Shown here one piece after another: positions 11,671 to 64,000 of a stretch of 64,000 bases of DNA. Each line of letters starts with the position of its first letter. The first letter of the stretch is position 1. Source of the DNA: Macrotis lagotis (Eukaryota > Chordata > Mammalia > Peramelemorphia > Peramelidae); assembly GCF_037893015.1 (NCBI RefSeq), contig NC_133663.1, positions 219,445,753 through 219,509,752 on the forward strand. The letters are read 5' to 3'. The notes beneath the pieces are model-generated. The model was not told where the DNA came from. It saw nothing but the letters and a program-made list of their open reading frames with translations, and made no database searches. Position numbers and translations under genes: made by a program.

Positions 11671-11820
11671 TTTTTTAGGTTTTTGCAAAGCAAATGGGGT
11701 TAAGTGGCTTGTCCAAGGCCACACAGCTAGGTATTTATTAAGTGTCTGAGACCAGATTTGAGCCCAGGTACTTCGGACTCCAGGGCCTGTGCTTTATCCA
11801 CTACGCCCCCTAGCCGCCCC
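11671..11820 (-). mobile_element. WSINE1-type SINE nested in L1 ORF1
   Basis: Minus-strand SINE flanked by TATAGGCTGTTT (11659-11670) and TATAGACTGTTT (11821-11832), a 12-bp target duplication with one difference. It splits the L1 ORF1 N-terminus from its coiled coil. Confidence 0.9.
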
Positions 11821-20424: not shown

Positions 20425-21430
20425 AAAATCATATAAATATTTCATTTGTTTTCCATTTACATACAATGGTAGTTTCTACCAATTATTTTTTTTGCAAGAT
20501 TTTGAATTTTACAATTTTTTCTCCCTCCCTCCTTTCCCCCAATAGAAGGTACTCTGATACAGTCTTTTCATTTGTTTCCATGATATACATAGATCCAAAT
20601 TGAATGTGTTGAAAGAAAAAAACAGATCCAAAAGAAAGAAAACATTAGAGATAGCAAAATTATATAATACATATGACAATTTTTAAAAATTAAAAATAAT
20701 AATCTTTGGTCTTCATTTAAACTCTACAATTCCTACTCTGGATATAGATGGTATTGTCTATCATGGATTCCCTAAAATTATCCCTATCATTGCACTAATG
20801 GAGCAAGCAACTCCATCAAGGTTGATCATCACCCCATGTTATTGTTAGTAAGTACAATGTTCTTCTGGTTCTGCTCATCTCATTCAGCATCCATTCATAC
20901 AAGTCTTTCCAGGCTTTTCTGAAATCCTGCCCCTCATGATTTCTTATAGAACACTAGTATTTCATCACATATATATATATACCACAATTTATTCAGTCAT
21001 TCCCCAATTGAAGGGCATCCCCTCAGTTTCCAGTTTTTTACCACTACAAAAAAAAAGAGCTGCTATGAATATTTTTGTACATGTGGGTTTTTATCCCTTT
21101 TCCTGATCTCTTCAGGATAAAGACTCAGTAGTGGTATTGCTGAATCAAAAGGTTTGCACGTTTTTATTGCCTTTGTGCATAGTTTCAAATTGCCCTCCAG
21201 AAAAGTTGGATCAGTTCATGGCTCCACCAACAATGCATTAGTGTCCCAGATTTCCCACATCCCCTCCAACACTGATCATTATCCTTTCTGATCATATTGG
21301 CCAATCTGAGAGGTCAATCTGAGATGCCAGAGATGCTTTAATTTGTATTTCTCTAATCAATAATGATTTAGAACAGTTTTTCATATGACTTTAGTTTTTA
21401 TTTCCTCATCTGAGAATTGCCTTTGCAGAT
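20425..21430 (-). mobile_element. L1 fragment, 3' end
   Basis: Minus-strand L1: 3' UTR-like GATTTTGAATTTTACAATTT at the left, then the ORF2 C-terminal region with CACAATTTATTCAGTCATTCC and CCACTACAAAAAAAAAGAGC. 5'-truncated and degraded. 21430-21785 next to it is spacer in which I see nothing. Confidence 0.8.
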
Positions 21431-23364: not shown

Positions 23365-24050
23365 AAATATTTATTTTGAATTTTACAATTTTCCCCCTAA
23401 TCTCACTTCCCTCCTCCCACCCCCCACAGAAGGTAGTCTGTTAGTCTTTACATTGTTTCCATGGTATACATTGATCTAAATTGAATGTGATGAAAGAGAG
23501 ATCATATCCTTGAGGAAAAAAATTAGGAAAAGTATGAGATATCAAAACTACATAATAAGATGATTTTTTTTATTAAAGATAATAGTCTTTGACCTTTGTT
23601 CAAATTCCACAATTCTTTCTCTGGATACAGATAGTATTCTCCATTGTAGTTATCCCAAAATTGTGTCTGATTGTTACACTGATGGAATTAGCAAATCCAT
23701 TAAGAGTGATCATCACCCCCATGTTGCCGTTAGGGTATATAATGTTCTGGTTCTGCTCATCTCGCTTAGCATCAGTTCATGAAAATCCCTCCAGGCTTCC
23801 TTGAATTCCCATCCCTCCTGTTTCTAATAGTACAATAATGTTCCATCACATACATATACCACAATTTATTAAGCCATTCCTCAATTGATGAACATTCACT
23901 TGATTTCCAATTCTTTGCCACCACAAACAGGGTTGCTATGAATATTTTTGTACAGGTGATTATTTTACCCTTTTTCATAATCTCTTCAGGGTATAAACCC
24001 AGTAGTGGTATTGCTGGATCAAAGGGTATGTACATTTTTGTTGCCCTTTG
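23365..24050 (-). mobile_element. L1 fragment, 3' end
   Basis: Minus-strand L1 3' UTR (TTTTACAATTTTCCCCCTAA, a purine/pyrimidine-biased run) followed by the ORF2 C-terminus. The minus-strand frame 23772-24089 contains MYIPFDPAIPLLGLYPEEIM, KIFIATLFVVAKNWK and WLNKLWYMYVMEHYCTIRN, classic L1 ORF2 ending motifs. Heavily 5'-truncated. Confidence 0.9.
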
Positions 24051-35285: not shown

Positions 35286-35440
35286 TGGGGGTGGCTAGGT
35301 GGCACAGTGGATAGAGCACCAGCCCTGGAGTCAGGAGTACCTGAGTTCAAATCTGGCCTTAGACACTTAATAATTACCTAGCTGTGTGGCCTTGGGCAAG
35401 CCACTTAACCCCATTTGCCTTGCAAAAACCTAAAAATAAA
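35286..35440 (+). mobile_element. WSINE1-type SINE, near consensus
   Basis: Plus-strand full-length SINE: GTGGCTAGGTGGCACAGTGG, box B GAGTTCAAATC, CTGTGTGGCCTTGGGCAAGC, and a short tail ending AAAATAAAATTAG that repeats AAAAATTAG before it. It lies about 270 bp past the OR-2 stop. 35018-35285 before it is AT-rich 3' flank with nothing seen. Confidence 0.94.
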
Positions 35441-36649
35441 ATTAGCTGTCTTGAAGAGTACTTCACAAATAATTTATGTTAACAATATGTTAGTGATACT
35501 TATTTTGACAAGACTGGAACAATAACAACTTAATTGACTCATATCAGCTATAATTCTGATTGGCTCAACATAGTGGGGATTGAGTTACCAGAGACATATC
35601 ATTTGCTGGAGAGTCATGAACTCCCCTTTATGAAGGTATAATTTAAAGAAAAAAATAATGACAAGAACTTATTTTTTGTTGCCCTTTAATGTTTGCAAAC
35701 TTACATTTACATAAAATTTGTATTGTTTTACCTTGTATTTACATATCTCAAAGCAAATGAACTGAGGCAATCTGCATTGTCTAGTGCCCAGGTACATGAG
35801 AAATAATATTTTTTTTAACTAGAAAATTAGAATTGGAAAAAATATTCAGTCCATTGTTTGGAGGATATTTACTTGATTATAGAAGCATCCCAGTTTTACA
35901 CAAGTCCCTGGGTCTTATATACTGCTATGGAAATCTTCATGAAAAGTTCTGGAAAACTCTAGATATTCCACAAATTGTAGAGTTTTACATTAAAAGCTAG
36001 AATTTAGAAATGTTGATTGTTAGAAAGAAAAGGAAAATAATTGAAGTTTATTTTGTGATATTAAATTATAATAATCAGTATCATATAACTACAAGGATTT
36101 CTAGGATGAGGTAAAGATACTGAAAATCACAAAAATTCAAACAATAGTCTTTTGAGGAGAAACTAAATTCTATTTTATAATGCAGATAAAATGTCAATGT
36201 TTTCTATTATTTTAAAATTATTTTACATAAATAAATTAATTTTTAAAAATAATATAAATAAATAATTTAAAATTATTTTAAATAAAAGAAAAATTCTTGT
36301 ATTTGTATTTAGGCTATTTTGGTTTTGATTACCAGGTACTATCTTATTTTCACTAATTCATTAATTTATTTATAACTTAAAAATTTTTTGAACTAAGACA
36401 CCAAAAAAAGCATTTTTATGTGCACAACAGAAAAGGAACATATGTAAAATCTAGAATAGTCACAGTTTAAAAAAAAACATAATAATTCTCACAGTCTCAC
36501 AGATTACTTTAAAAACTGTCCTGCTTATCCATTCTTCTTGTATTCTTTTGTCAATTAAAAAAAGTTTTGATAGGATTTTTTGGCATAGTATTACTAATCT
36601 TCCTCTTTTCCATCATAAAAAAATAAAAAAAATCTAATTTCAAATAATC
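35441..36649. other. AT-rich intergenic spacer
   Basis: No gene. 36220-36290 repeats AAATTATTTTAAATAA-like units. An MIR-like scrap may lie near 35690-35780. Nothing else recognisable. Confidence 0.5.
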
Positions 36650-42046: not shown

Positions 42047-42200
42047 TGGGGTGTCTAGGTGGCGCAGTGGATAAAGCACCGGCCCTGGAGTCAGGAGTAA
42101 CTGGGTTCAAATCCAGTCTCAGACACTTAATAATTACCTATCTGCCTGGCCTTGGGCAAGCCACTTAACCCCATTTGCCTTGCAAAAACACCTAAGAAAA
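42047..42200 (+). mobile_element. WSINE1-type SINE
   Basis: Plus-strand SINE: GGGTGTCTAGGTGGCGCAGT, GGGTTCAAATCC, CCTTGGGCAAGCCACTTAAC, tail of A residues. An AAAAATCT repeat at both ends is likely the target duplication. Confidence 0.93.
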
Positions 42201-42987
42201 AAAAATCTGTCTTACCCTACAGGGAAATGGGGCTGGGGGAAAGGGAAAGAAAGGGGAAGAAGGGACTGATAAAAGGGAAGTGAAAGTAAAAGCAAAGTTA
42301 AAGTTAAAAAGAAAAGTTTAAGGGGAAAGGGAGCAAAACATTGTGAAGAAAGGATAAGGGAAAAGGAAAGAGAAAAATATAAATGGGGAAAGATATCATG
42401 GATTAGTAATCTTAATCATAAATGTGAATGAGATGAATTCTCCAACAAAATGGAAGCACATAACAGAATCCTACAATATGTTGTTTACAAGAAACATATA
42501 TGAAAGAGAGAGACACACAGGGTAAAGGTAAAAAGGCTGGAGTAAAATGTATTACACTTCAGCAGAAATAAAAAAAAATCAGGGACAGTATTCCTGATCT
42601 CAGACAAAGCAAAAAATAAAAATCAATCTCATTAAAAGGAATAAGGAAGGAAACTACATCTTCTTAAAAGACACCATAGGCAATGAAGTAATATTATTAT
42701 TAAACTTATATACACATAATGCTATAGCATCCAAATTCTTAGAAGAGAAACTGAATGAATTACAAGGAGATATAGACAGCAAAATTTTATTAATGTGGAA
42801 TCTCAACCTCATCTCAGAATTAAACAAATCTAACCAAAAATAAAGAAGGAAGTTAAGAAGATGAATATAATCTTAGAAAATATAGATATGATAGACCTCT
42901 AGAGAAAACTGAACACGGATAGAAAAGAATATACCCTTTTCCTCTGAAGAACATGTCATCTATACCAAAATTGACCATGTACTAGGC

Positions 42988-43159: not shown

Positions 43160-45109
43160 TACCAGGGCATAAAAACCTTAGAATCAAATGTAGAAAGGCA
43201 AATTATTAAAAAAAAAAACATCCTTTTCAGATCATGATGCAGTAAAAAAATGTAATAAAGAAACATGGAAAGTTAAACCAAAAATTAATTGGAAGCTAAA
43301 TAAAGCTTAAAAAGATGATCAAACAACAGATAATAGAAACAATCAACAATTTCATGCAAGACAATGAAAATAATGAGACATCATATCAAATTTATGGGAT
43401 GTAGTCAAAGCAGTTTATAGGGAAAATTTTATATCTCTAAATACTTAAATGATAGTATTAGAAATGTTAGTTTTAGCAATAAGAGAAGAAAAAGAAATTG
43501 AAGGAATAAGAATTGACAATGAAGAGGTAGAACTTTCACTCTTTCCAGATGATATCAAAGAACCCTAAAGAACTAATTGAAACAACAGCTTCAGCAAACT
43601 AATAGGATATAAAATAAAGCAACATAAATCATCAACATTTCTATATATGAACAATCAAGTCCAAGGATTCCATTTAAAGCAATTGTTAGACAATCTAAAA
43701 TACCTGGGAATTTACTTTTCAAGACAAAGACAAACTATTTGAACACAATTACAAAATACTTATCACACAAATAAAGTCAGATCTAAACAATAAAAAACAA
43801 TAAGAGCTTACTATTCGACAAAACTGCTGGAAAAACTGGAAAATAGTATGGAAAAAACTAGGCATAGATCAGCCATGATTCTGGAGGACTGTTTATGAAA
43901 AATATATATTACCAACCTATCGAGAGAGAGGTCAATGACTCAAGGTGAAATATAATACATACATTTTTGAGGATGCAACTAATAAAAGAATTAATTTTCC
44001 TTGAATATTTAAACAAAAGGGAATTAGGGCAAGGAGACTAATAGGTGGTTCCCGAATGATGTTCTCCCGGGCACCAAGTAACCTCACAAGGATATTTTAA
44101 ATTTTTCTTGGAAACATGCCACTATTTAACAATTATCAGCATCATATATTTCAACATTAGATTATTCTATATTCCTTTTATTCATTAAGAAAAATTTTAT
44201 TTATTTTGAGTTTTACAATTTTCCCCCTATTCTTGCTTTTCTCCCGCCAGCACCCACAGAAGTAGTCTGCTAGTCTTTACCTTGTTTCCATGGTATACAT
44301 TGATCCAAATTGAATGTGATGAGAGAGAAATCATATCCTTAGGGAAGAAAAAGTATAAGAAATAGCAAATTTACATAATGATATAACAGATTTTTTTTTT
44401 TTTTAAGAAATTGAAGTCTTTAGTCTTTGTTCAAACTCCACAATTCTTTCTCTGGATACAGGTGGTATTCTCCATCACAGATAGCCCAGAATTGTGCCTG
44501 ATTGTTGCACTGATGGAATGAGCAAGTCCATCAGGGTTGATCATCACCTCCATGTTGCTGTTAGGTTGTACAGTGTTTTTCTGGTTCTTCTCATCTTGCA
44601 CAGCATCAATTCATGCAAATCCTTCCGTGCTTCCCTGAATTCCCATCCCTCCTGGTTTCTAATAGAACAATAGTATTCATGATATATATATATATCACAG
44701 TTTGTTAAGCTATTCCCCAATTGAAGGACATTCACTTAATTTCCTATTCTTTGCCATCACAAACAGGGCTGCTATGAATATTTTTGTACAAGTGATATTT
44801 TTACCCTTTTTCATAATCTCTTCAGGGTATATACCTAGTAGTGGTATTGCTAGATTTTATTCACCTTCTTAACTTCCTTCTTTATTTTTTGGTTAGATTT
44901 GTCTAATTCTGAGACGAGGTTGAGATCCCATATTAATAAATTCTATCAACACATTCAATTTCGATCAATATATATCATGGAAACAACGTAAAGATTATCA
45001 GACTGCCTATCAGACAACATAAATCATCACCATTTCTATATATGAACAATAAAGCCCAAGGAAAAAAGAAAGAGAAATTCCATTTAAAGCATTTAAATTC
45101 CATTTAAAG

Positions 45110-46128
45110 GGTATGCACATTTTTGTTGACCTTTGGGCATAATTCCAAATTGTTCTCCAGAAGTTCACAGCGCCACCAATAATGTATTAGTGTCCCAGAT
45201 TTCCCACATTCCTTCCAACATGGATCAATGTCATTTCTGGCCATATTGGCCAGTCTGAGAGGTGTGAGGTGGTACCTCAGAGATGCTTTAATTTGCATTT
45301 CTCTAATAATTACTGATTTAGAGCAGTTTTTCATATGACTATGGATTGCTTTGATCTCCTCATCTGTAAATTGCCTTTGCATATCCTTTGACCATTTGTC
45401 AATTGGGGAATGGATTATTTTTTGAGAATTTGACTCAATTCTCTGTATATATTTTAGAAATGAGTCCTTTGTCAGAAATGCTAATTGTAAAAATTGTTTC
45501 CCAATTTACTGATTTTCTTTTGATCTTGGTTACAGTGGTTTTGTCTGTGCAGAAGCTTTTTAATTTAATGTAATCAAAATTAACAAGTTTGCTTTTAATG
45601 ATGTTTTCCATCTCTTCCTTGGTCATAAACTGCTTCCCTTTCCATAGATATGACAGGTGTACAACTCCTTGATCATCTAGTTTGCTTATGATATTGCTTT
45701 ATATGTCTAAATCCTATATCCATTTTAATCTTATCTTGGTATAGGGTGTGAGGTGTTGGTTTAATCCAGGTTTCTTTCATACTAACTTCCAATATTCCCA
45801 ACAGTTTTTATTGAAGAGAGAGTTTTTATCCCAAAAGATATGCAAAGGCAATTTACAGATGAGGAGATCAAAGCAATCCATAGCCATATGAAAAATTGCT
45901 CTAAATAATTAATTATTAGATAAATGCAAATTAAAGCTTCTCTGAGGTACCACCTCACACCTCTCAGACTGGCCAATATGACCAGAAAGGATAATGATCT
46001 TTGTTGGAAGGGCTGTGGGAAATCTGGGACACTATTACACTGTTGGTGGAGCTGTGAACTCAACCAACCTTTCTAGAGAGAAATTTGGAACTATGCCCAA
46101 AGGGCAACAAAAATGAGTATACCCTTTG
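45110..46128. repeat. Large imperfect inverted repeat inside the L1
   Basis: 45110-45392 (minus-strand L1 sense) is the reverse complement of 45830-46128. For example CAATCCATAGCCATATGAAA on the plus strand near 45878 is mirrored near 45330-45350. Arms are about 285 bp with a spacer of about 440 bp. After 46150 the minus-strand sense resumes and repeats the segment already seen at 45394-45510. Confidence 0.85.
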
Positions 46129-46487: not shown

Positions 46488-46634
46488 AGGGGTGGCTAGG
46501 TGGCACAGTGGATAAAGCACTGGCCCTGGAGTCAGGAGTACCTGGGTTCAAATCTGGTCTCAGACACTTAATAATTACCTATCTGTGTGGCCTTGGGCAA
46601 GCCACTCCATTTGCTTTGCAAAAACCTAAAAAAA
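46488..46634 (+). mobile_element. WSINE1-type SINE nested in L1
   Basis: Plus-strand SINE with a perfect 16-bp duplication AAGAATTTGGATGCTA at 46472-46487 and 46635-46650. Confidence 0.95.
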
Positions 46635-48690
46635 AGAATTTGGATGCTATACCATTGGGTGCACACATATTTGTATTGAAATTACCTGATTGCCTAGGGG
46701 ACCTTTTAGGAAGGTATAGTTTCTTTCCTTATCTCTTTTAACACTATCTATTTTGTAGCTGCTTTGTCTGAGATAAGGATTGCAACCCCTGCTTTTTCCA
46801 CTTCAGCTGAAGCAAAATATATGTTGCTTCAACCTTTTACTTTTACTCTATATGTATCTCTTTGCTTCAAATGAGTTTCTTGTAAGCAGCATATTATAGG
46901 ATTCTGGTTTTTAATTCACTTTGCTATTCACTTACATTTTAAGTGAGAGTTCATCCCATTCACATTCAAAGTTATAATTACTAACCCTTTATTGCCCTCC
47001 ATGCTTTCTTCCCTCTGTTTGTATTTTCTGCCTTTTTCCCTTTATCCATATTGCCCAATATTTTGTTTCTGAATACTGCCACCTTCAGTGTGTTTACCCT
47101 CCTATATCAACCCCCTCCCCTTTCTTTCCCTTTTCCTTTTTCCCCTTCCTCCTTCCCTTTCTTTGGTTAGTTCTCCTTTTTCTCCCCCTTTCTGCCCCCC
47201 CTTCCCCTTTATATACTTGAAAGGTAAGACAAATTTCTTAACTTAACTTAACTGAGTGTATGTAAGTTAACTTTAAGTCACGTCTAATGAGAAGATTCAG
47301 GTGGTTCTAACAGACTCCTTTCTTCTTCTCTATTGCAATAGGTCTTTTCTACCTCTTAATGTAATGAGATTTACCCCATTCAATCTCCTCCATCTTCCTG
47401 TCTCCCTTTTTAAGGAGGTATTGTTTTTAAATCATTCTATCTGAATCAAGAAAAGTCATGAATGTCTATTACTTCTGACTAAGTATATTCATTCTAATAG
47501 AGTTACATACAGTTCTGGAGAATTATTAGTCTTTCTCTCAGGTAGGGATATATAGCCAGTTTCATCTTATTGGATAGCAGTCTCATGGATAAGTCAGGAG
47601 TGTCCATTACTTCTGGCTAAGTATATTCTCTCTAATAGAGTTACAATTCTCAAGATTTATGAGATATAGCCAGTTTCATCTTATTGGATAGCAGGTTTTT
47701 TCCCCCCCCCCCACCTTTTTAATCTTTTCATGTTTCTCTTGAGACTCCTGTTTGATGTCCAGATTTTCTATTTAGTTCTGGTCTTTTCATCTGGAAATGT
47801 TGGACGTCTCCAATTTCATTATATGTCCATCTTTTCACCTGGAAGAGAAGGCTCAGCTTTGCCAGATAGTGGATTCTTGGCTATATTCCGAGCTCCCTTG
47901 CTCTTTGGAATATCACATTCCAGACCCTTTGATCCCTTAATGTTGATGCTGCCAGGTCTTGAGTAATCCTTACTGTGGCTCCTTGGTATTTAAATTGTTT
48001 CTTTCTGGCTGCTTGCAGGATTTTCTCTTTTATATGATAGTTCTGGAATTTGACTACAGTATTCCTTGGTGTTTTCATTTTTGGATCACTTTCTGGAGGG
48101 AATCGATGTATTCTTTCAACAACTATTTTGCCCTCTGGTTCCATGATATCAGGGCAGTTTTCATCACCATATACTTTAATATTAAACCCTGGCTTTTTTT
48201 CTCTCCAATGTTTTCAGGAAGTCCCATAATTCTCATGTTGTTCTTTCTCAATCGGTTCTTGAGGTCAGTGGTTTTGCTGAGGAGGTATTTTATATTTTCT
48301 TCTATTTTTTCTATCTTTTGGTTTTGTTTAACAGAATCTTGTTGTCTCATGAAGTCATTAGTTTCCACAGATTCCATTCATTTTTTTTTAGAGAAGAATT
48401 TTCTTCATTTACCTTTTGCAACTCCCTTTCCAATTGGTCAATTCTATTTTTGAAGGAGTTTTCCATTTGCCCAAGTGTAGTTTGAGGGAAGTGTTTTCTT
48501 TTTGTATTTGTCCAGTTGTATTTTCCAAGGATTTGTTTCCTTGTTGCAAGATGCTAATTTTCTCTGGCAATGTGTTAATTTTCTCTTCAGTTTCTTTTCC
48601 CAGTTCTTTCAACTGATTTTTAAAGTTCTTCCTGATATTTTCAAGGAAGTCTTTCTGGGCTTCATATTCTCCTCAGAAGTGCTAGATCTC

Positions 48691-49611
48691 AAAGCAATCC
48701 ATAGCCATATGAAAAATTGCTCTAAATCATTAATTATTAGAGAAATGCAAATTAAAGCTTCTCTGAGGTACCACCTCACACCTCTCAGACTGGCCAATAT
48801 GACCAGAAAGGATAATGATTAATGTTGGAAGGGTTGTGGGAAATGTGGGACACTATTATACTGTTGGTGGAGCTGTGAACTCATCCAGCCTTTCTGGAGA
48901 GAAATTTGGAACTATGCCCAAAAGGCAACAAAAATGAGCATACCCTTTGACTCAGCAATACCACTACTGCATCTATACCCTGAAGAGATGATGAAAAAGG
49001 GTAAAAAAAAAAATCACTTGTACAAAAATATTCATAGCAGCTCTGTTTGTGGTGGCAAAGAATTGGAAATCAAGTAAATGTCCTTCAATTGGGGAATGGC
49101 TTAGCAAACTGTGGTATATGTATGTCATGGAACACTATTGTTCTATTAGAAGCCAGGAGGGACAAAATTTCAGGGAAGCCTGGAGGGATTTGCATGAGCT
49201 GATGCTGAGTGAGATGAGAAGAACCAGAAAAACACTGTATACCCTAACAGCAACATGGGGGTGATGTTCAACCTTGAAGGACTTGCTCATTCCATCAGTG
49301 CAACAATCGGGAACAATTTTGGGCTGTCTGCAAAGGAGAATACCATCTGTATCCAGATAAGGAGCTGTAGAGTCTGAACAAATTTAGAAAAAAAACCCCA
49401 GATATCTTATGGTCTGATCTTGTTATCTCTTATACTTTTTGTCTCTTCCTTAAGGTTATGATTTCTTTCTCATCACACTCAATTTGGACCAATGTACAAC
49501 ATGGAAACAAAGTAAAGACTGATGGATTGCTTTCTGTGGGGGGTGGGGAGGGAACTAATATTGGGGGAAATTGTAAAACTCAAATAATATCTTTAATAAA
49601 AAAAGAAAAAA
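48691..49611 (+). mobile_element. 5'-truncated L1 nested in the older L1
   Basis: Plus-strand L1 3' end. It carries the ORF2 C-terminus with ALFVVAKNWKSSKCPSIGEW and WYMYVMEHYCSIRSQEG (near 49030-49160), then the 3' UTR (CATGGAAACAAAGTAAAGAC, CTTTCTGTGGGGGGTGGGGA) and an A-rich tail. A 16-bp duplication AGAAGTGCTAGATCTC flanks it at 48675-48690 and 49612-49627. It inserted opposite in orientation to its host L1, inside the ORF1/5' UTR boundary region. Confidence 0.93.
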
Positions 49612-50427
49612 AGAAGTGCTAGATCTCTCTGTGTTAGAATCTGGTCTTTCTAAGTGTTTCTCCAGGGGTCCCTCTTTTCTATGGTTTTTCTTCATTTTCC
49701 TAGGATCTTGTGTTGGGGAGGGGCTGGCTTTCAGAGGTTTGCTTTTGAAGACCCTAGAGGTTTTGTTCATTTGGCTTAGTAATTCCAAGGGCCGGCCAAT
49801 AGGGGGTGCTGGTTGATTTCTCTGGAGCAATTGAAACCCTTTCCATATCCTGGAGGGAATGGGGGTGGTGGTGGTGAGGAAGGAGTGAGAAGGGGCAGCA
49901 GGTTTTCAGCTGACCTTGAACAATGGGCTGGAAGCCAGTCTCTCTTTCAACTGAGATATCTTATGGTCTGATCTTGTTATCTCTTATACTTTTTGTCTCT
50001 TCCTTAAGGGTATGATTTCTTTCTCACAACACTCAATTTGGATCAATGTACAACATGGAAACAAAGTAAAGACTGATGGATTGCTTTCTGTGGGGGGTGG
50101 GGAGGGAACTAATATTGGGGGAAATTGTAAAACTCAAATAATATCTTTAATAAAAAAAGAAAAAAAGAAGTGCTAGATCTCTCTGTGTTAGAATCTGTTC
50201 TTTCTAAGTGTTTCTCCATGGGTCCCCCTTTTCTCTGGTTTTTCTTCACTTGGTTTAGTAATTCCAAGGGCCAGCCAATAGAGGGTGCTGGTTGCTTTCT
50301 CTGGAGTGATTGAAACCCTTTCCCTTTCCAGGAGGGAGTTGGAGGGGTGAGGGGTGAGGAAGGAGTGAGGAGGGGCAGTAGGTTTTCAGTTGAGCTTGAA
50401 CAATGGGCTGGAAGCCAGTCTCTCTGA
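49400..50427. repeat. Two-unit local tandem duplication (unit about 554 bp)
   Basis: Unit 1 runs from AGATATCTTATGGTCTGATC at 49400 to about 49953. Unit 2 starts with the same bases at 49954 and ends at about 50427 after TGGGCTGGAAGCCAGTCTCT. Both hold the 3' end of the nested L1, its tail, its right target-site copy and part of the host L1 5' UTR. Unit 2 lacks about 80 bp near the TCTTCATTTTCCTAGGATCT part. Apart from that they are very similar. Confidence 0.93.
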
Positions 50428-51805: not shown

Positions 51806-53316
51806 AAGCTTCCCTTTTCTCTGGATCCCTTAACTGGATCTGAGCAAATGTGTAGTGATTTCCATGATTTCCATTTTTCTTGAAAACATATGAAAACCCC
51901 ATTCCCTGTTCATAGAAATTTTAAGTTATTTCCTCTTGAAGTAAAATATGGAGATAAAAATTAAAATGTTAGACATCCACTAGGACCTTTTAAAGAGGAA
52001 TAACATAGGCTCTTCTCAGAACTGAAGTCTATTCATTCATCTGTCATTTAAATCATCTTCCTCCCTGTGCCCATTTCCCTCTCTCTCTCTTTCGTTTTCT
52101 CCGCTTGTTCATTTTTTTGTGCCTATCTTTTCCTGTCTCCCACATTTCAATATCATTATCCTTACCTCATTTCTCTCTTTCTATCTTCCCTCCCTTCTCT
52201 AGTTATCTTTTATTTCCATAAATGTAAATGAAATATACTTATATATGTGATGAATATATCAATCAATAACTAGTTGCACACTATGTGTCTGTCAGTACCA
52301 TACATTATAATAGGGGTGTTACATGAGCCATATATATGTGTGTATATATATATATGTATATACACACATATATATGCATATATATACTTGGTACATGAAA
52401 AATGAATGCAAGATAGTTTGGGGAGGGAGTAAATTAGTAGCTGTACTAATAGCTGTACTAGTAACTTCTTGTAGAAGTTGGGGCTTGAACTGAATCTTGA
52501 AGGAAACCTGGAATTTCAAAAGATAGTAGATGATGAAGAGGGAAGAAATTCCATTCATGGAGGAGATCTGCTGCAAAAGCACAAAGATAAAAAATGGATT
52601 GTGTAGCCAATAGACCAGAATAGCTATAGTGCTATTGAACAAAATTTTATTTTTCATTATTCATTTAAAATACATGAGAGTACAATATTGTGGATGTCTT
52701 TTCTCTCATCCCCCTTCCTATATAAATAAGTTGTATACTGTTATGCCAAAACCAAAAATTTATTGTTTTACCTTGATCTGGAAAGTTCTCTACTCCTTAA
52801 CCTAAAGAATTGCTAAAAGTTCCCAACTTTTCTTTGGGCAGGATATTTCTACCTTCTCTGTTAGCACTGACAGCTAATTGAAATCTCCAGAGAAGCAGTT
52901 TAAGACTTAGTTCTGTTTTCAATGAATCTGTAAAAAAAAAATTGATCTTGTACCTAACATACATTCATTGTCATGAAATGTCCCATATATTATTGTCATA
53001 AGTCATAAATTCATTCTTTAATTATTAACATCTTCTGGACTCTTTGCATTTTCTACTCTATGCTTTCATATTTGGGTGGCTCAAATTTGACCCATTAATA
53101 ATGTAGCTGGATATGACTTTGAGCAAGGGACTTAACATTATTGAGTGGCAGTGTAGCAAGTTGTGACACAACTCTGTTATTGACTGTATCAGATTGGTTC
53201 CTTCAACCTCACAGAGCTTGGTTTCCTTATTTCTAAAATCAGGCCTTTTTTTTGATGTTAGACAAATCACTTAACTATGCTGTTTCCATTTCCTCATCTA
53301 AAGTGAGTAGGCTGAA
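51806..53316. other. Spacer with MIR/L2 scraps and a TA/TG microsatellite
   Basis: 52325-52390 is a TATATG/TACACA microsatellite. MIR-like pieces lie near 53095-53290 (AGACAAATCACTTAACTATG, TTTCCATTTCCTCATCTAAA). The minus-strand frame at 52319-52657 runs through the microsatellite and is not credible as a gene. Confidence 0.5.
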
Positions 53317-53695
53317 CTATCAGGGGTTCTCAAAGTGTGGTCCAGGAACCTCTGGAGAGTCTTCAAATCTTTTCAGGGGATTGATGTCAAAACTATTTTT
53401 ATAATAATAATAATTTTATATATAATTATCTAATATTATATAATATACAAAACATATAATTTATAAAGTATCTATAGTAAATATATAATTTATATGATCT
53501 AATTAATATATAATTATATAATGATAATTTTATAATATTAAAAAAGATGTTTACATTTCAAATAGTAATTGTCAATAGATATAACCCACATAAACAAAAA
53601 CTCTTAGGGGTATCCTCAATAATTTTTTTAAATGGAATGGGGAAAGTTGAGATCAAAAAGTATATGATCTCAAAAGTTTTAGAACTTCCAGTTGC
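53317..53695 (+). mobile_element. hAT-type DNA transposon fossil
   Basis: The left end CAGGGGTTCTCAAAGTGTGG followed by GGAACCTCTGGAGAGTCTTC, a middle CAAAACTATTTTTATAATAA and a right part CTCAATAATTTTTTTAAATG then GATCAAAAAGT..AAAAGTTTTAGAAC fit a Charlie-like element. The centre (53400-53540) has been replaced or expanded by TA-rich sequence. Confidence 0.65.
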
Positions 53696-56600
53696 ATTCT
53701 TATAATTCTATGCTATTGATTGAATGACCAACCTCAGAAAGTTGTTGTGAAGAAGGCACTTGTAAAGGCCTATTGTTTTTATTCTCAACAACATCAGTAA
53801 CAAAATTCAATGACAAATAAATCCTGTTTGGTGAAGAATATATTAAATTGGGCTTTTGTGTGTGAGTGACTGCATGTTCTCACATAGGATTTAATATTCA
53901 TCTTCTGTTTCATTAATATTTAATTGGATTGCTAATATGCATTATTTGAAGTAGAGAACAATACAATTTATACTACAATTCACTTGAAATAATATGAATA
54001 AAAGGAGTATTTTATATGAATTTAAAACTAAACCATATGTCACAACTTCTGAATTATTCATTCTTCTGAAATTTTTAAAGACTGAGAGTTGATCCTTTTG
54101 ATAAGAGTTAGATCTTGTGACTGGCAAATTATTTTATTAAAAAAAGAATTTAGATCATTAATTTTTACTGAGCATTGAATTAGGAATCAGAAAATCTGTG
54201 TGCTCAACCTTGGGAAAATCCTGAAATAACTCTTATTTCTCAGCTTCCTCATCCTTAAAATGGAGGGATTAAAATACAATAGCTATAATGGTCTTGTTGT
54301 AAAATTGTATTGTAACTTAAATTTTTTGTTATAAATTTCACTGAGCCTTTGAAGGATTAAAATCCTTCATTTTGGTTCCAGTCTTTCTTTACTCATCTCA
54401 CTTTACTGCTCTCACTGATTATTTGTTCTAGTCAAATCATGCTACTAATCTTTTTTCCAACTTATTCTTCTTCCTCTCACTTTCCTCTGTTTTGTGGAGG
54501 CATATCATATGGTCCCACCTTCCATCTCTCTATCTCTTAAAATCCTTCCTTTCTTTCTTAACATAGTTCACCTTATACCTCCTTGAAAGAATCTTCTCTG
54601 ATTCCACTACCTCCTTAAATTTTGAATATCATTACTCAGTTGTATACAATTTGTACAGTTTAAGCTGACTCTCTAAATCCTATTTCAATTAAGTGCATTC
54701 TTTAAAATTTTATTTAGGATATTATTGTTTTAAATTCTATGCAATGAATTTTCATTTAATGTTTTGATGGTTTTTGCTCTCTCTGAATTGATGGGTCAAT
54801 CAACAAGCATTTATTAAAAGCTTTAATAACTGTTGTAAGTACCTCAAACTCAAAAGCCAAAATGGAATAGTCACTATCATTAAAAAGCTTGCATTCTGCT
54901 GGGGAGATGACATGTGAAGGAGCTTAAAGGAAAGCTAGAGATTCTAAGAGGTGAGAAGAGGAGAGAGTGAGTTCCAGGCATGGCTTTTGACCAGTTTAAA
55001 GACATTCGCTTTAAATATTCTAATTATAATTTAAAGAATGATCAAGAGGGAAGAAGCAAATCCTTAAAAATAATATCTGCCAGTCTCATCTGTTCTCTAG
55101 CTCATATTTTGGTTCTCTATTTTTTTCCCCTTCCATAAAAATAAAAAAAGTACTTGGTATTTTGAGTAAACTTTTAAAAATAAATTTTGTTAATAATAGG
55201 CATGAGTCCTCAGACAAGGCACAAGTAGGATAATATAACCTACTTGAACTTTTTTATTTTCTAGTATTTCTGCTTATATTGGTTGTGATTTTGGGGGGAG
55301 AAAGGTTGCAAGACAATGAAGTTGTAGTAATTATTAAGTAAGTACCACTTCATAATATTTGCTTTTGCTACCTTGATGTTGGTTTAGTTATCTTGTTGAC
55401 CTAGTTCTTAAGAAACACTAGATTCTAGAATCTAGAAGATGGAAAGTAAGTAATAAGTGTCTGAGGTCAAATTTGAACTCAGGTCCTCCTGACTCCAGGG
55501 TCAGTGTTCTATCCATTGCATCACTTAGCTGCCCCATTTTTATTAATTAGCTGTGATCTTAAAGCACAGTATGATGGGATTAGATTGATACAGAAATTCT
55601 ACAGGATATGAAGTTATCCTTAATACCATTTTATGGGGGAGAAATGAATTTGGCCTGAGAAATTAATGAGAAAAAATAATTCACATTTTTATTATGCTTT
55701 AGAGTTAACAAATAATTTCTTTCCCATCAATCCAGAGAATAGGTAATTTAGACATTTTCACTAATCCCATTTTTCAGAGGAAGAAACTGAGGCTCATAGA
55801 TATGAAATATTTTGCCCATAATCACATATGATTTCATCATTAATTATTGTATAGGAAAGGAAATTGCTTAATTGAAGAGAATAAGGAGAAGTTAAGTCCT
55901 CTAATTCCAAGTACAGAATTCTTTGAATTACAAAAATTTAAGACAAAGAGAAAAATGCAATAATAGAAGTAGATGGAATGGGAGGAGGAGAAAGAGGAGT
56001 TAACTTAGCAATTTTACACTTTAAAGTCAGAACCCAGCTCATATAATTCAATGCACTTTTTAACATTGGGAAATAAGGAAAAGATTGACTTCTTAATGAT
56101 GAGATTGGCATTTCAACAGAGCAATTGAAGGTTCTACAAAATGTCAGCCAGGGAGGTCTAAAAAAACCAATTGGGGAGAGACAGGAGAATGGCCTTATAT
56201 CTTCTTAACCATGCCCTATGGACAAAGGGAGGGCCATATTTCTGTGTGAGTTGCTCAGAAGGAGACAGCAACATCTGCTGTTAATTAGCAGTGCTGATTT
56301 TCTTTCCCTGTGATTTGTATGGTTTGAGCAAAACAAATACTTCAGATACTTCAGACTGAGTAGTCTATCAGAGTAGTTAGAACTCTTATGTCAGAAATTC
56401 TGACATATTCTTGACAGTTGGTATTGCCTCTTATAATATTTGTTTTTGCTACTTTGACTATTCATTTACTTGTCTTGTTGACTTAGTTCTTAAGGAAACT
56501 CTAGAATTTAGAATCTGGAAGATTAAATGTTAACTATCATTGTCATTACTGAATTTGATGCTTTTATTTTGAGAATACTGTGCTTTATGTTTGCTTTCAT

Positions 56601-57039
56601 GTTGTTTTAGCAAGTTGTCAGTGATACAGAAGAAAGCAATTCTTAACGATGTCAACAAATTCAAGTAATATTTTCCCAAATGTCATTAATTGCCTACTTA
56701 GTGAGAAAGCAAAATTTTCAAATGTTTGTTTTATTCCTTGAGACATTGACAGACATTTTAAGCCATCTGGTATTGAAAATTCACAGCTCTAAAAACAGCA
56801 AAGATCTGAGAAAATTCACTTTAACAAATATTCACTAGGTGCCTTATAAGGTATTCACCATCATTCATGTTCTTGTGAAGGACTAAAATATATAGTTTAA
56901 AAAATAATTCCTGATTAATTGCATATGATTGAATTGACAAGGTTAAATATTGTATATAAACATGGAAAATGAAATAATACTTGGTGGAATAAGAACAATA
57001 TTTAATTGCATCTCTTCAGATTTATTTAATTGTGGGTGC
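53696..57039. other. Spacer with old repeats and a diverged direct repeat
   Basis: Contains an MIR-like piece (54165-54300), an L2-like end (54795-54930, CAACAAGCATTTATTAAAAG), a partial minus-strand WSINE (55447-55540), an MIR (about 55735-55850) and an L2-like scrap near 56820. 55345-55440 and 56430-56522 are diverged direct repeats about 1.08 kb apart (TTGACCTAGTTCTTAAGAAA against TTGACTTAGTTCTTAAGGAA). No gene recognised. Confidence 0.55.
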
Positions 57040-57445
57040 CTTGTTCTACAAAGGATATTGATATACAGAATGGGGTAAACAGAATGGTGACTAGCTTTGA
57101 GTCTGTTTCATATGAAGATCAGTTGAAGGAATTAGGAAATGTTCAAAGTACAGAAGTCTTGGGGTGGAGGGTGAAGTAGGGATGGGGACACAAGAGTTGT
57201 CTTCAATTATTTGAAGGGCTGTTATGTGGAGAACTGATTACATTTGTTGTTCTTTTGGTCTCTGAATTAAGAACAAGGTGCTATGGATAGATGTTGCAAA
57301 TTTGGGCATGCTGTCAGAAAAAAAACTTCCCAGCAATTAGAGCTGTCTAAAATTGGAATGGGCTGTCTAAAGAAGTGGAAATTTCTTTCTCCTTAGAAGT
57401 CTTCAAACCACTCCTGAATGCTACTTATTGGGCGTGGTATAGTAG
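57040..57445 (+). mobile_element. L3/CR1-type LINE fossil
   Basis: Plus-strand 3' part of a CR1-clade element: ATTTGAAGGGCTGTTATGTG, AGAACAAGGTGCTATGGATA, AAACTTCCCAGCAATTAGAG, GGAATGGGCTGTCTAAAGAA. The conceptual product near the end has the LP.NxRAV-type pattern of the CR1 ORF2 C-terminus. Very old and broken. Confidence 0.7.
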
Positions 57446-57569
57446 TGATTCCTTTTTTTTAAATGATTTGGAATAGATGGCAACATAGTTATTACTATTA
57501 TCAACAGGGATTATAGAGGAAGTCTAATTAGATAGAAGATCTAGGAATGATTCTGTCATGCCTTGATGA

Positions 57570-58470
57570 TTTTTTTAAAAAATTATTTTTTTCTAATTAC
57601 ATGTAAATATAATTTTCAGCACTCATTGTCTATGAGATTTTGAGTTCCACATTTTTCTACTTCTTTTCCTTCCCTCCCCCTTTCCCATAATACCGAGTAA
57701 TCTGACATAGGTTATATATGAAGAATCATGCTAAACGTATTTCCATATTAGTCATATTGTAAAAGAAAATCAGGGAAAAAAGGGAAAAATTAAACAAATA
57801 TTTAGAAAGAGAATATAGTATGCTTTGGTATGCATTCAGACTCCATAGCTCTTTCTTAAATTGTGGATAGCATTTTCCTTTTAGAATTGTCTTTCAGAAT
57901 TATCTTTGATCATTGTACTGCTGAGAAGAGCCAAGTCTACCACAGTTGATCATCACACAATGTTACTGTTAATGTGTGCAATGTTCTCCTAATTCTTCTC
58001 ACTTCACTAAACATCAGTTCATGAAAGTCTTTCCTGACTTTTTGAAGTCCCATTCATCATGATTTCCTATAGAACAATAGTGTTCTATAGCACAATTGTT
58101 CAGCAATTCCTCAATTGATAATCGTCCCCTTAATTTCCATTTCTTTGACCACACAGAAAAGAATTACTATTAAAATACTTGTACATGTGGGTCTTACCCT
58201 TTTTTTTTATGATGTTTCAGAATACAGACCTAGTAGTGACTTTGCTGGATCACAGAGTTTGAGCATAGTTCCAAATTACTCTAGAATGGTTGGATCAGGT
58301 CACAATTCCACCAGCTGCATTAGTTACAATTTTCCCATATCTCCTTCAACATTTATCATTTTCCTTTTTTCATATTAGTCAATCTGATAGGTGTGAAGTG
58401 GTACCTCCGAGTTGTTTTAATTTGCATTTCTCTAATCAATGATACTTTAAAGCATTTTTCATACATATGT
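57570..58470 (-). mobile_element. Old L1 fragment, 3' end
   Basis: Minus strand: TCTAATTACATGTAAATATA and GAGATTTTGAGTTCCACATT at the 3' UTR end, CAGTTGATCATCACACAATG, TTCCTCAATTGATAATCGTC, and AATTTGCATTTCTCTAATCA at the far end. Resembles the L1 at 2375-4640 in type and age. Confidence 0.8.
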
Positions 58471-58779
58471 CTTGACTTTAAAAGAAAAAATGGAAAAAGA
58501 GGGAAAGAAGACTATATTGAGGAGCAATGATTAAAAAATGTTATCTAATATAATTGAGGTGCATGAGTACAGGAGCAGCTGACATTTGAACCTTCCTTTC
58601 ATCGAATTCAAAGGGGTGAATACATACGCCTATGCACATGTATAGACAAATAGATTACTGTCAACAGGAAAATTTAAGGGAAAAGGAAGAAGAGAGCAGG
58701 GGAATTGGAGTAAAAATAGATTAAAGTAGGGATAAGTTCAAAGCAAAATAAGTTCTAAATAAGATCATTCAAAAATATA

Positions 58780-59131
58780 TCTCTGAGGACAAAAAATACA
58801 TCTTCTGAAGACAAAAAATGGGAATCTGAGGGGTTGCCATGCAATCAGGAAATGATTGACCAAGTTATGGTATATTAATGTAATATAATGCTGTAAGAAA
58901 TGATGAAGGGAATGATTTGAGAGAAATATAGGAAGACTTGCATGAATGGATGTGCAATGAAGAATAAAACTAGGTGAATAATTTGTAGAATGATAGCAAT
59001 ATAGTAAAGGTAAGCAACTGTGAAAGACTGAGAACTCTCAACCACAATTCTAGAGAAATAATGATGAAAGTTGTTACTCACTTAATGATAGGTACTCAAC
59101 TCTGAGTGTATGCTTGCACTTATATACCCTC

Positions 59132-59164
<33 letters not shown>

Positions 59165-59330
59165 ATATATATTATATATATATAATATAGATATAATCAC
59201 ACATTTTATAGCAAATATGTACACATACATACATGCATATATACATGCATTCTTTGGGGCATGACTAATGCATAAATTTGTTTTTCGAGACTATACATGC
59301 TTATAACAGTGTTTTTGTTTTTTCTTGTTC
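58780..59330 (+). mobile_element. Old L1 fragment, plus strand
   Basis: Plus-strand ORF2-end and 3' UTR pattern: CTGAGGGGTTGCCATGCAAT, AGTTATGGTATATTAATGTA, GCTGTAAGAAATGATGAAGG, AGACTTGCATGAATGGATGT. A (TA)n microsatellite (59132-59200) has grown within it. Confidence 0.7.
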
Positions 59331-59399
59331 TCATTTGGAAGGGGAGGACAAAAAGATAAGATAGATGTTTTCTACTTGAAAAAATTTACTTAAAAAAAT

Positions 59400-59600
59400 C
59401 TGTAGAAAATTTAAAGATAATCTAGTACAACCACTTCATTTTAGAGAGGGGAAAACTGAAATCCAGAAAGATTATGGGACTTTTCTGAAGCCTGACAAAT
59501 AGGATATGACAGCACAGAAATATAAACCCAAGTCTACTAGCTTGAAACTCAGAGATCTCTTTCTGCTGCACCACCCTGAATCCCATATCCAGACACATTT
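59400..59600 (-). mobile_element. MIR/CORE-SINE-like fossil
   Basis: AATCTAGTACAACCACTTCA, GAGAGGGGAAAACTGAAATC and a head-like GCTGCACCACCC suggest an old minus-strand CORE-SINE relative. Confidence 0.45.
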
Positions 59601-59637
59601 ACTTGAATTTCTTTTAATTAGAGCCCCTTGAAACCAA

Positions 59638-59750
59638 TGACTACCACTACCACCACCACTATCGCCACCACTACTACCACCACCACTGCCATCACCAACC
59701 ACTACTACAACTACTACCACTTCTCCTCCTCCTCCTCCTACTGAGTTGCC
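59638..59750. repeat. (ACC/TACC)n and (CTC)n trinucleotide array
   Basis: About 110 bp of mixed ACC, ACT and CTC triplets. Read on the minus strand it gives a Gly/Val-rich frame that is only a by-product of the repeat. Confidence 0.97.
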
Positions 59751-60199
59751 CTTGTATTTAGAGTATGTAAAGGGACCTGAACATGTCAAGAACAAATAGC
59801 CCTCATATCCCCAGCTGACATAATTTGTTGTTTGGCCTCCCTATGTCCAGACAGATGTCAGTCAGTCTGCCCTAGAATGGGAAGTCATTTATGTAATTGG
59901 AACCTGTAGATAAGCAGATCATCTTTTCTTCATAGTCTAGCAGTTCCCTAGGAAAAAGAAGATTGTTTTTGCCATGTTAATTATTCATGACTTATCCACT
60001 GCCACTTGGATTTAAGTGGAGATTTTCATTTCCTCTCCTCTTTTTATGGCAATTTCATAAATATGCAAGCTTCTGTTTGAATTGTAAACTCTGCTTGATT
60101 AGGGTTCCACATGCACGTTCATTTTTCTTCTAATACATTTAATTGCAATGCAGTGTTTCATGGTCTTGTGGTACTATTTTTGGTTAACACTAGTTGCCA

Positions 60200-60385
60200 T
60201 AGGCATTGTGCTAAATACTTTACAATTATTATTTCAATTAATCCTCACAATAAACCTGGGAAATAAGTGTTATTATTTTTTCCATTTACAGATGAGGAAA
60301 TTAAAGAAAACAGAAGTTAAATGACTTGCCCAGGATCAAAGAACTAATCTGAGACTGGATTTTTAACTCCATTCCTCTTGGAGGA
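60200..60385 (-). mobile_element. MIR-type SINE
   Basis: Minus strand: AATTATTATTTCAATTAATC, CAGATGAGGAAATTAAAGAA, AATGACTTGCCCAGGATCAA. 59760-60199 before it is spacer without a recognised feature. Confidence 0.75.
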
Positions 60386-60387
60386 GC

Positions 60388-60625
60388 TACAGCAGCTAGG
60401 TGGCACAGTGGGGAGTTAGGAAGATTCATCTTCCTGAATTCAAATGTGACCTCAGACATTTACTAGCTGTGTGACCTTGGGTAAGTTGCTTAGCCCTATG
60501 TGTCTCACTTTCCTCATCTGGACAAGAAAATGGCAAATGACTCTAGTATCTTTGCCAAGAAAATCTCAAATGGGATATTGAAGAGTTGGAAATGACAGAA
60601 AGAACTGACCAGCACAACACACACA
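60388..60625 (+). mobile_element. CORE-SINE with RTE-like tail, full length
   Basis: Plus strand: head ACAGCAGCTAGGTGGCACAG, box B-like GAATTCAAATGTG, CORE TGTGTGACCTTGGGTAAGTT, then GACAAGAAAATGGCAAATGA, TATCTTTGCCAAGAAAATCT and GAGTTGGAAATGACAGAA. It ends in a (CA)n run (60614-60640). Confidence 0.88.
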
Positions 60626-60639
60626 CACACACACAGAAA

Positions 60640-60853
60640 CAGTGATCTATAAGGTAATGAGACACAGGACTGTATTGAGAATTTAAAAATATTTTTTGAT
60701 TTCTGCATAATTTGTTTTCGTTGTAATCCTATGTGCTTTATTTTATGTATTTCAAAATATTCATCTGACAAAATCATAAGATTCACCAGACAATTGAAGT
60801 TGTCTATGAAACAAAAAAGACAAATATACTAGATATTACGTGTGATTAGAGAG

Positions 60854-60906
<53 letters not shown>

Positions 60907-61160
60907 CATACACATAAATTTTTTAAAATTTGTTTTTAATTGTTGAGGCAGTAAAATACTTGTTGGTTCATGGAACTGCAATATACAGAGAGGTGAAATA
61001 AATAGCATATAAATATATATAAATATAAATATGTATATATGTATATATTAAAATGTATATGTATATATTTAAAATATATATATGTGTATGTATATATTTA
61101 AAATATTCCCTTATCATTGGTGTACTAATCATTTGAGTCTCTGAATATAATTAGCACCAT
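60640..61160. other. AT-rich spacer with (TA)n
   Basis: 60858-60903 is a pure (TA)n tract. 61005-61100 is a second TATATG-rich tract. No gene seen. Confidence 0.85.
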
Positions 61161-61409
61161 GCTCTAGAACTGAGAGCAATGCATAGCCATGCAACTAGGA
61201 CAGAGTCCTCTGTCATCCGAAGGTTGATGTGCTGAGAACTCCAAGGACACATCATCCCCACTTGGTGTTACCATCTTGTCTCTATGCTGTTTGCAGTGGA
61301 CAATAAATAAATGACTGCAAACCAGAGATTTTTGTTTGATGGAAGGATCTGAAAAGGATGGGGAGAGGAGAAAGGTAGTCTGTGGAGTGTTTGCTTTTTG
61401 GTGGGGGGG

Positions 61410-62170
61410 TTGTTGGGGGTTTTTTTTCAACAAATTTGGAGGAAAGGACTTTGGTTTACCCTGCTTGTTGTTTCCTTTAATAAAGTTCTCTGGGGACCAG
61501 TTTAAAGTTGTCTGTTCCCAAAAGAGAAATGAGCACCCAGTCCACTGGATAGGAGTCTTTTGTTGTGGGTGGTTTCAAGTCAACAATAAATCCTTATCAC
61601 TTCCCCTACATTTGGGTTCAGTTTTTTTCCTTTTAAACACAATGTTACAAAAAATAGAACTTTTTTCTTATTTTAATGTAAAAATATGTCTCTGATGCAG
61701 TTTGTGTGTGTGTGTGGCTTATGGTTGCACCATCCTGGTGGGACTAGTGGGGTTGGCTGCTCTAGCCAAGGTATGTGGGCTGGATTTCCCTTTTTCACTT
61801 GGTTACCATTGTATATTTGAAGGGCTTCTACAATTCAACTTGGCCCTTGGGGTAGCACTTCATAAAATGTACATCTTGCTGATTCTCCTGAGTCTTGGGG
61901 CCCCTCTTTGGTTTCCCCTTGGCGAAGCCCACATACTAGTCTGTGTATTTGGCAGACATCAGTGCTGTTAATTTGCTGGTGCCATCAGGCTGCCTCACAA
62001 GTTTACCTTTCCTAGTCATGCAAAGGTAGAAGTCTGTCTCCTTGCCTTTGATCTGGACTTGGCTGCCAAATGTGTCTGTTTCTACAAGAAGCTGAGATAT
62101 TTTGCATTTGTCCTCCAATATACAGCCAGTCACCATCTTCCCTTCCTTAGCCACACTCCTGGGGCTCCTT
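61410..62170 (-). pseudogene. FGF18P: FGF18 processed pseudogene
   Basis: Minus strand. 61762-62110 translates, with breaks, to the C-terminal half of fibroblast growth factor 18: LLVETDTFGSQVQIKGKETD, FYLCMTRKGKLV, PDGTSK, TALMSAKY, GPKTQENQQDVHFMKCYPKG, KPFKYTMVTK, closing at a stop at 61762-61764. About 12 codons (the ECVFIEKVLENN part) are missing in frame. No introns occur. The following 350 bases resemble the FGF18 3' UTR as I remember it (AAACTGCATCAGAG, TTTTTACATTAAAATAAG, TTGTTGACTTGAAACC), so it is a reverse-transcribed mRNA. The similarity may continue to about 61160. The N-terminal half and signal peptide are absent or unrecognisable above about 62110-62170. In-frame stops are present. 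Living FGF18 is a secreted FGFR ligand; this copy looks non-functional. Confidence 0.87.
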
Positions 62171-62275
62171 GGGTCTCTGACATTTCCCCAACACATAAAA
62201 TTTTTGAGGAAAAAAGTTACAAGAGTTGGTTGAAAAAGAGATGTCATGGCTAACTTTTTTAAAAATATATATTTC

Positions 62276-63562
62276 TGGGGGGCGTAGCCAAGATGGCAAC
62301 AAGAAAGGATCGTGTCTTAGGCACTCTCTCATAAAACTCATAAGCTAAGGACTCTAACTAAATTTTCCAAAGACAGAACCCACAGAGGGACCTAAGGAGG
62401 CACTTCTCCTACTCAAGGTAACCTGGAAAAGAGCAAAATGGCTCTGCCCCCGGGGGTTGGAGGGGCGACCCGCCAGATGGGTGGCCCACCAGAGTGAAAG
62501 AACTTCAGCCTCCCGGAGGCAGCCCCAAGGTGCTGGGAACTGCAGCTCACAGCAGCAGGGGAGTTTCCCGACCCACGCCCCCCGGAGAGCACCGGGCATA
62601 AATTGGAGGAACAGCGGGGCACCTCTGCCAGAGTGAGCATGTGAAGCCCAGCCCTCAGGGCACACAGTGAGCAAGTGTCTTTAGGCAGCCCTGATCCAGG
62701 AACAGAAGCAGGCAGAGCCGGTAAGCAGGAACCCCCAGGGCGTGAACCCATTGAACCTAGGGAGGGGAGTGAAGAGAGACAGCAGAGCTGTGTCCTCTGT
62801 CCCTGGAACAGGACTCTGGGACTCTGACCACATTCAGATCCTGATCGCAGCCTAGGCCCCCCCCCAAATAGAACAGCAGGCCCCCCCACCTCAGCCCTAT
62901 GGCAGAGGGGGCGCTTATGATCATTCACATACCAGGAGGGAAGACAGAACCTCACACACTGAGACCCTTGTGGGAGTGTCCCAAAAGCTCAGGAAGCACC
63001 CTAAAAACAGGCTAAGGCTGGGAAAATGAGCAAGCAGAGAAACAAGAGGAACACCATTGAGAAATATTTTGCATATGAGCCCAAGAAGGATCAAAACACT
63101 CAGTCTGAAGATGAGGAAGCACAAGCTCCTGCATCTAAAGACTCCAAGAAAAAACAGAAATTGGACTCAGGCTATGACAGAGCTCAAAAATGACTTTGAA
63201 AATCAAATGAGGGAGTTAGAAGAAAAACTGGGAAAAGAAGTGAGAGAGATGCAGGAAAAACATGAAAATGAAGTCAGCAGCCTAGTAAAGGAAATCCAAC
63301 AAAATGCTGAAGAAAATAGAATGCTAAAACCCAGCTTAGCTCAAATGGATAAAACAGTTCAAAAAGTTATGGAGGAGAAGAATGCTTTAAAAAGCAAAAT
63401 TGGCCAGATGGGAAAAAAGATAAGAAAACTCTCTGAGGAGAAAAAATCCTTCAGACAAAGAATAGAATTCAGGGATATTGATGAATTTACCAGAAATCAG
63501 GAATCAATACTTCAAAAGCAAAAATATGAAAAATTAGAAGAAAATGTGAAATATCTCATTGA
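62276..63562 (+). mobile_element. L1 with intact 5' end, truncated at its 3' side within ORF1
   Basis: Plus strand, starting GGGGGGCGTAGCCAAGATGG. A GC-rich 5' UTR covers 62276-63025. ORF1 starts at ATG 63026: MSKQRNKRNTIEKYFAYEPK, with the same TIEKYF motif as the L1 at 11.9 kb. It then shifts frame near 63150-63180 and continues as a long coiled coil (FENQMRELEEKLGKEVREMQ and on, 63190-63560). It stops abruptly at CATTGAAAAAA with no ORF1 C-terminal domain, ORF2, 3' UTR or long poly(A). A perfect 15-bp duplication AAAAATATATATTTC flanks it at 62261-62275 and 63563-63577, and the left site reads TTTTTT/AAAAAT, a normal L1 endonuclease target. Confidence 0.92.
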
Positions 63563-63599
63563 AAAAATATATATTTCCTGGGGAAATTATTTTACTCAT

Positions 63600-64000
63600 A
63601 CTCTGTAATTTCTTTTTGTTCTTATTCTTATCCTTTTTGTTCTTCCTCTTCTCCTTCTTTGTCTTCTCCTTCATCTCCATTTTGTTCTTCTTATTCTTGT
63701 TCTTCTTCTCTTCCTTCCCCTGCTCCTCCTTCTTTCTCTTTTTCAATATATATGTATACAGGTACACCTATGTTTGTATATACATTTCCCACTCCCCAGA
63801 GAACTAACTGTTCTGTGTATGTGTCTGTGTGCTTATATATGCATATACTGAACTCAGGATTATGTTGGTAAAAATTTAACAACTAGTTGTCTAGGGATAG
63901 GAAATCTATGTATGACACATCTTTAAGTTTTAACTTCATGATTAACATTGTCCCCATCACTGTCTTAAGTCTAGACAATCACAGGGATCAATCTAGTCCT
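63600..64000. other. Pyrimidine-rich tract and terminal spacer
   Basis: 63607-63745 is a strand-asymmetric TTC/CTT-rich run. The rest is single-copy-like sequence to the window end with nothing recognised. Confidence 0.8.

Follow-up and report, generated by a model that had tools for sequence, protein, structure and literature searches.

Within the window, by which is meant the whole 64 kb stretch of DNA that was analysed, a piece of an L1 element of approximately 1.29 kb lies on the forward strand between two exact copies of a 15 bp target-site duplication (Table 1). The inserted element, which we take to be an L1 of the marsupial type, consists of a 5′ UTR of approximately 750 bp followed by 542 bp of ORF1. 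ORF2, which specifies the endonuclease and reverse transcriptase, is absent between the duplications, and this L1 copy is a truncated and not a working element. Directly upstream of the L1 there is an FGF-like pseudogene fragment (61936–62247, minus strand), probably a retrocopy, for which the best solved relative is FGF18 (E 8.7e-21; Pfam FGF, E 7.6e-13). A pyrimidine-rich tract resembling TTCTTCCTCTTCTCC is found at 63610–63745, just beyond the 3′ duplication.

Table 1. Features of the L1 insertion and of its target site
Feature	Position	Strand	Basis
Predicted first-nick site, TTTTTT/AAAAA; nicked bottom strand would end TTTTT-3′	62255..62265	+	sequence
5′ copy of the target-site duplication, AAAAATATATATTTC	62261..62275	+	sequence
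L1 5′ UTR, from the start GGGGGGCGTAGCCAAGATGG to the start of ORF1	62276..63025	+	TAGCCAAGATGG common to second L1
L1 ORF1 in two frames, limited to the N-terminal region and coiled coil; no C-terminal domains	63026..63567	+	tblastn
GAAAAAA at the 3′ junction; last five As also part of the target duplication	63561..63567	+	sequence
3′ copy of the target-site duplication, AAAAATATATATTTC	63563..63577	+	sequence
Predicted single-duplication (empty) form of the site, TTTTTTAAAAATATATATTTCCTGGGG

The first-pass annotation had reported perfect 15 bp target duplications around the L1, and this was confirmed. The left junction reads CTTTTTT-AAAAATATATATTTC-TGGGGGGCGTAGCCAAGATGG and the right junction CTCATTGA-AAAAATATATATTTC-CTGGGGAAATT. 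The exact 15-mer occurs only twice in the 64 kb window, both times flanking the L1 insert, and when up to one mismatch is permitted there are three matches in the window against 0.08 expected. When the paired 60 bp junction windows were base-shuffled, a common stretch of at least 15 bp was found in none of 4000 trials, and random pairs of 60 bp stretches taken from the window shared one in 3 of 3997 cases, as expected of DNA that is rich in repeats. If one indel is allowed (TTTC-TGGGG aligned with TTTCCTGGGG), the duplication can be extended to 20/21 bp, with TGGGG present after both copies. The duplication may thus be longer than 15 bp, in which case the GGGG at the start of the L1 would be common to the target and the L1.

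The first copy of the duplication is followed directly by what we take to be the L1 5′-end motif. The motif TAGCCAAGATGG is found both at the start of the element and at the 5′ end of a second L1 elsewhere in the window (50877–50720, minus strand), where at 50877 it precedes a further copy of ORF1 (copy A), with other repeats lying between them. Beyond TAGCCAAGATGG, the similarity of the 5′ UTR to that of the second L1 is weak (BLAST E 0.24). Three matches to the 5′-end motif are present in the window where 0.38 are expected, at least three being reached in 1 of 100 shuffles, and the one at 12463, which includes three mismatches, may be due to chance. Judged from the 5′-end motif and a single diverged relative, the element appears to begin at or near the L1 5′ end and would be 5′-complete or nearly so. 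The second L1, also diverged, extends from 50877 to about 46280 on the minus strand. Other repeats interrupt it, and it includes a 5′ UTR, ORF1 and a weak match of the endonuclease type. A piece of approximately 300 bp, located between the 5′ end and the ORF1 of this L1, is present twice at 97 % identity (49400–49697 and 49954–50251).

The ORF1 of the element is frameshifted, and Pfam returned no L1 match for the element's own ORF1 part. Using tblastn within the window, the coiled-coil region matches copy A (48377–48273, minus strand; E 2.7e-06) and, in two pieces, a second copy, copy B (11537–11336, minus strand; E 4.1e-04). Beyond the shared part, copy A contains the L1 RNA-binding domain Transposase_22 at E 4e-06, above the cut-off, and copy B a match to the same domain that is just below it (E 2.3e-04, 21.9 vs 22.4 bits). 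Further on, both have matches to Exo_endo_phos that are below the cut-off (E 1.4e-04 in copy A and 4.8e-03 in copy B). Via these two copies and their Transposase_22 domains, the ORF1 of the element is related to that of L1. Though the annotation made from the sequence alone had most of ORF1 present, the element retains only about half, with approximately 180 codons before the break and approximately 180 more after the same point in copy A. A SINE-like unit of approximately 150 bp (11676–11820, minus strand) lies inside the ORF1 of a third L1 copy. Units related to it are present repeatedly throughout the window, among them those at 35288–35443, 42048–42202 and 46488–46635.

Alignments of the element with copies A and B both end at 63566 (..ENVKYLIEK), while the two copies run past this point (..SKTTDLKNR.. 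and ..EKTNNLENR..) and align with one another across it, sharing 50 % identity over 38 residues with one stop in copy B. Because these two diverged L1 copies extend beyond the break, the place at which the element stops is a real 3′ truncation, and the earlier description of an L1 that has kept its 5′ end and lost its 3′ end holds in the main. Continuation of the L1 past the second duplication was considered and rejected, as the peptide of copy A aligns with the element only up to 63566. At the DNA level, the 80 bases before the break resemble the two relatives (0 and 1 of 2000 shuffles as good) and the 80 bases after it do not (1279 and 1625 of 2000). The test after the break is weak because there the relatives also fail when compared with each other (747 of 2000 shuffles as good), and the protein comparison across the break is the stronger of the two.

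One possibility to be weighed against these alignments is that the element is a member of a repetitive family of short L1s, similar to half-L1s, that lack ORF2 and regularly end in the region of 63566. ORF1-only elements of this kind, HAL1, are known (PMC5322556) and are like the present copy in being derived from L1 and in having no ORF2. However, HAL1 is described as an ORF1 with a poly(A) tail, whereas here ORF1 lacks its second half and there is no tail, and the copy was for this reason not assigned to HAL1. The two other ORF1 copies in the window also pass the break and lead on to weak endonuclease-like matches. Hence, membership of such a family is very improbable.

The element ends in GAAAAAA, with the duplication directly adjoining, as first described. 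There is no A-tail beyond these six As. The last five of the six are common to the target duplication, which leaves only the G-A of the run as surely derived from the L1. At the codons of the break, the sequence is AGCAAAACC in copy A and GAGAAAACA in copy B, each with a run of four As, and the element has its A-run in place at this point. It is plausible that the A-run is coding sequence (GAA AAA A..). As both relatives have four As, the pairing between RNA and primer may extend over only 4–6 nt.

A missing 3′ part displaced to a position nearby would have offered a different account of the break. No L1 domain was detected by Pfam in six-frame translations of 53001–62260 and of 63578–64000, the latter ending with the window at 64000; the only matches were to FGF upstream and, downstream and below the cut-off, to RPN2_C and Serinc. 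Self-comparison of the window detected two repeat pieces 3.3–4.4 kb upstream of the insertion and outside the duplications, at 57895–58463 (minus strand) and 58813–58960 (plus strand), which share 67–81 % and 72 % identity, respectively, with other copies in the window. The same repeat family is found at 20776–21385, 23707–24030, 44487–44855 and 48708–49303, and in our assumption it resembles the 3′ part of L1. A Pfam scan of another copy of the family (44000–46000) gave no L1 match, and as Pfam misses this family the scans of the flanks cannot rule out other pieces that resemble an L1 3′ part. From their opposite orientations, their position outside the duplications and their levels of identity, the two upstream pieces would be separate, older insertions, and a displaced 3′ part was rejected. 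They leave the odds for the origin of the copy unchanged, since the insert is bounded at either end by a duplication. When the parts of ORF1 that follow the break in the relatives were compared with the window, the only matches were copies A and B themselves, which lie at least 14 kb away on the other strand. The missing 3′ part was therefore not found nearby, within the limited reach of Pfam. No relatives in viral contigs were confirmed by the scan.

The target, TTTTTT/AAAAA, agrees with the consensus given for the L1 endonuclease, TT/AAAA (PMC5322556), and is in this respect a normal L1 endonuclease site. Together, the duplication and this TT/AAAA-like nick site point to target-primed reverse transcription, and a 3′ end that appears to lie inside the RNA and carries no added A-tail is that of a tailless insertion. 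The reading that best accounts for the locus, to which we assign a probability of approximately 0.68, is that the L1 was copied in by target-primed reverse transcription that began inside the RNA. The L1 endonuclease would have nicked the bottom strand at TTTTTT/AAAAA, and the TTTTT end so freed would have paired not with the poly(A) tail but with an A-rich stretch of ORF1, GAA AAA A.., which encodes Glu-Lys-(Thr). Reverse transcription would then have continued until the RNA ended at its 5′ terminus, and cleavage of the second strand 15 bp away would have generated the duplication that is seen in the sequence. The expected product is 5′-complete or nearly so, 3′-truncated and tailless, with no ORF2 and a broken half of ORF1. 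Internal priming is preferred because the end is tailless, a T-run is present at the nick and the duplication is exact. In addition, of the 1288 positions in the element only 16 follow AAAAA, and of the 538 in its ORF1 part 15 do so, the observed end being counted in both cases, and a random break would therefore seldom land on one.

The same features favour the proposal of priming at an internal A-run made in the first-pass annotation, which is sustained only in part, as a later deletion would leave the same structure. Such a deletion, running from the A-run in ORF1 to the poly(A) tail of an L1 that had been inserted at full length, would have removed ORF2 and the tail, kept the duplication and yielded the same end product. 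For Alu monomers, internal priming is indeed described as difficult to distinguish from recombination of an internal with the terminal oligo(A) (PMC5322556). However, the deletion must take the whole tail and leave just six As, five of which are already supplied by the target, and it needs a coincidence that internal priming does not. We consider a later deletion unlikely.

Alternatively, the template may have been an L1 RNA that had been cut or prematurely polyadenylated within ORF1 and whose new end was then primed in the ordinary way during insertion. Premature polyadenylation is described as a source of 3′ truncation in the review PMC4859970, and a weak variant of the signal, AAGAAA, is present at 63538, some 20–30 bases before the end. 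Though it is the only one of the searched hexamers in the last 60 bases, AAGAAA also occurs at five other positions in the element, and neither AATAAA nor ATTAAA is present within it. A new poly(A) end is also at odds with the lack of any added tail beyond the six As, and Noll et al. sought truncated RNA intermediates for 5S and U2 copies and report no convincing signals (PMC5322556). A shortened template is thus quite improbable.

If internal priming is the correct reading, this copy provides one more clear natural instance that agrees with initiation of L1 reverse transcription at an A-run inside the RNA. Such copies can carry the 5′ UTR, which from L1 biology should include the promoter region, in the absence of ORF2. 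It is conceivable, though highly doubtful, that the A-run of ORF1 has been used repeatedly for priming within this L1 lineage and has generated many copies that are 5′-complete, bear a promoter, lack ORF2 and share the same endpoint; if true, recurrent priming in ORF1 would define a class of L1 by-products that disperse promoters.

Internal priming of L1 and Alu, attributed to Srikanta et al. 2009 and described in PMC4859970 and PMC5402677, involves an internal A-rich stretch of RNA that pairs with a T-rich nick end and leads to a 3′-truncated insertion, and the same is proposed here. The review counts internal priming among the types of 3′ truncation, and the human case that it lists, at EYA1, was accompanied by a 17 kb deletion and has no duplication (PMC4859970), whereas the present copy has both a duplication and an endonuclease site. 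Likewise, a polymorphic tailless AluS insertion attributed to internal priming is described as having no endonuclease site (PMC5402677), in contrast to the site and duplication found here. A further paper, PMC2837659, concerns twin priming and is less relevant to the present copy. For truncated marsupial LINE-1 with internal priming, the literature retrieved was limited to PMC5322556.

In that paper, Noll et al. (2015) report tailless retropseudogenes with duplications derived from many RNAs, for which internal priming is favoured by default, with 2–18 nt of complementarity at the insertion sites and with endpoints that lie in single-stranded regions of the RNA. Among human L1s with duplications, their relaxed screening recovered 708 that are full-length, 90 that are 3′-truncated and 5593 that are truncated at both ends (PMC5322556). 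The human tailless L1s are a tallied set from another genome, whereas here there is one copy, known from the window alone, but they share with it a 3′ truncation, the lack of a tail and flanking duplications (PMC5322556). No current view is changed by the present copy, which is a further member of a published class, the 3′-truncated tailless L1s with duplications, that is uncommon but already described.
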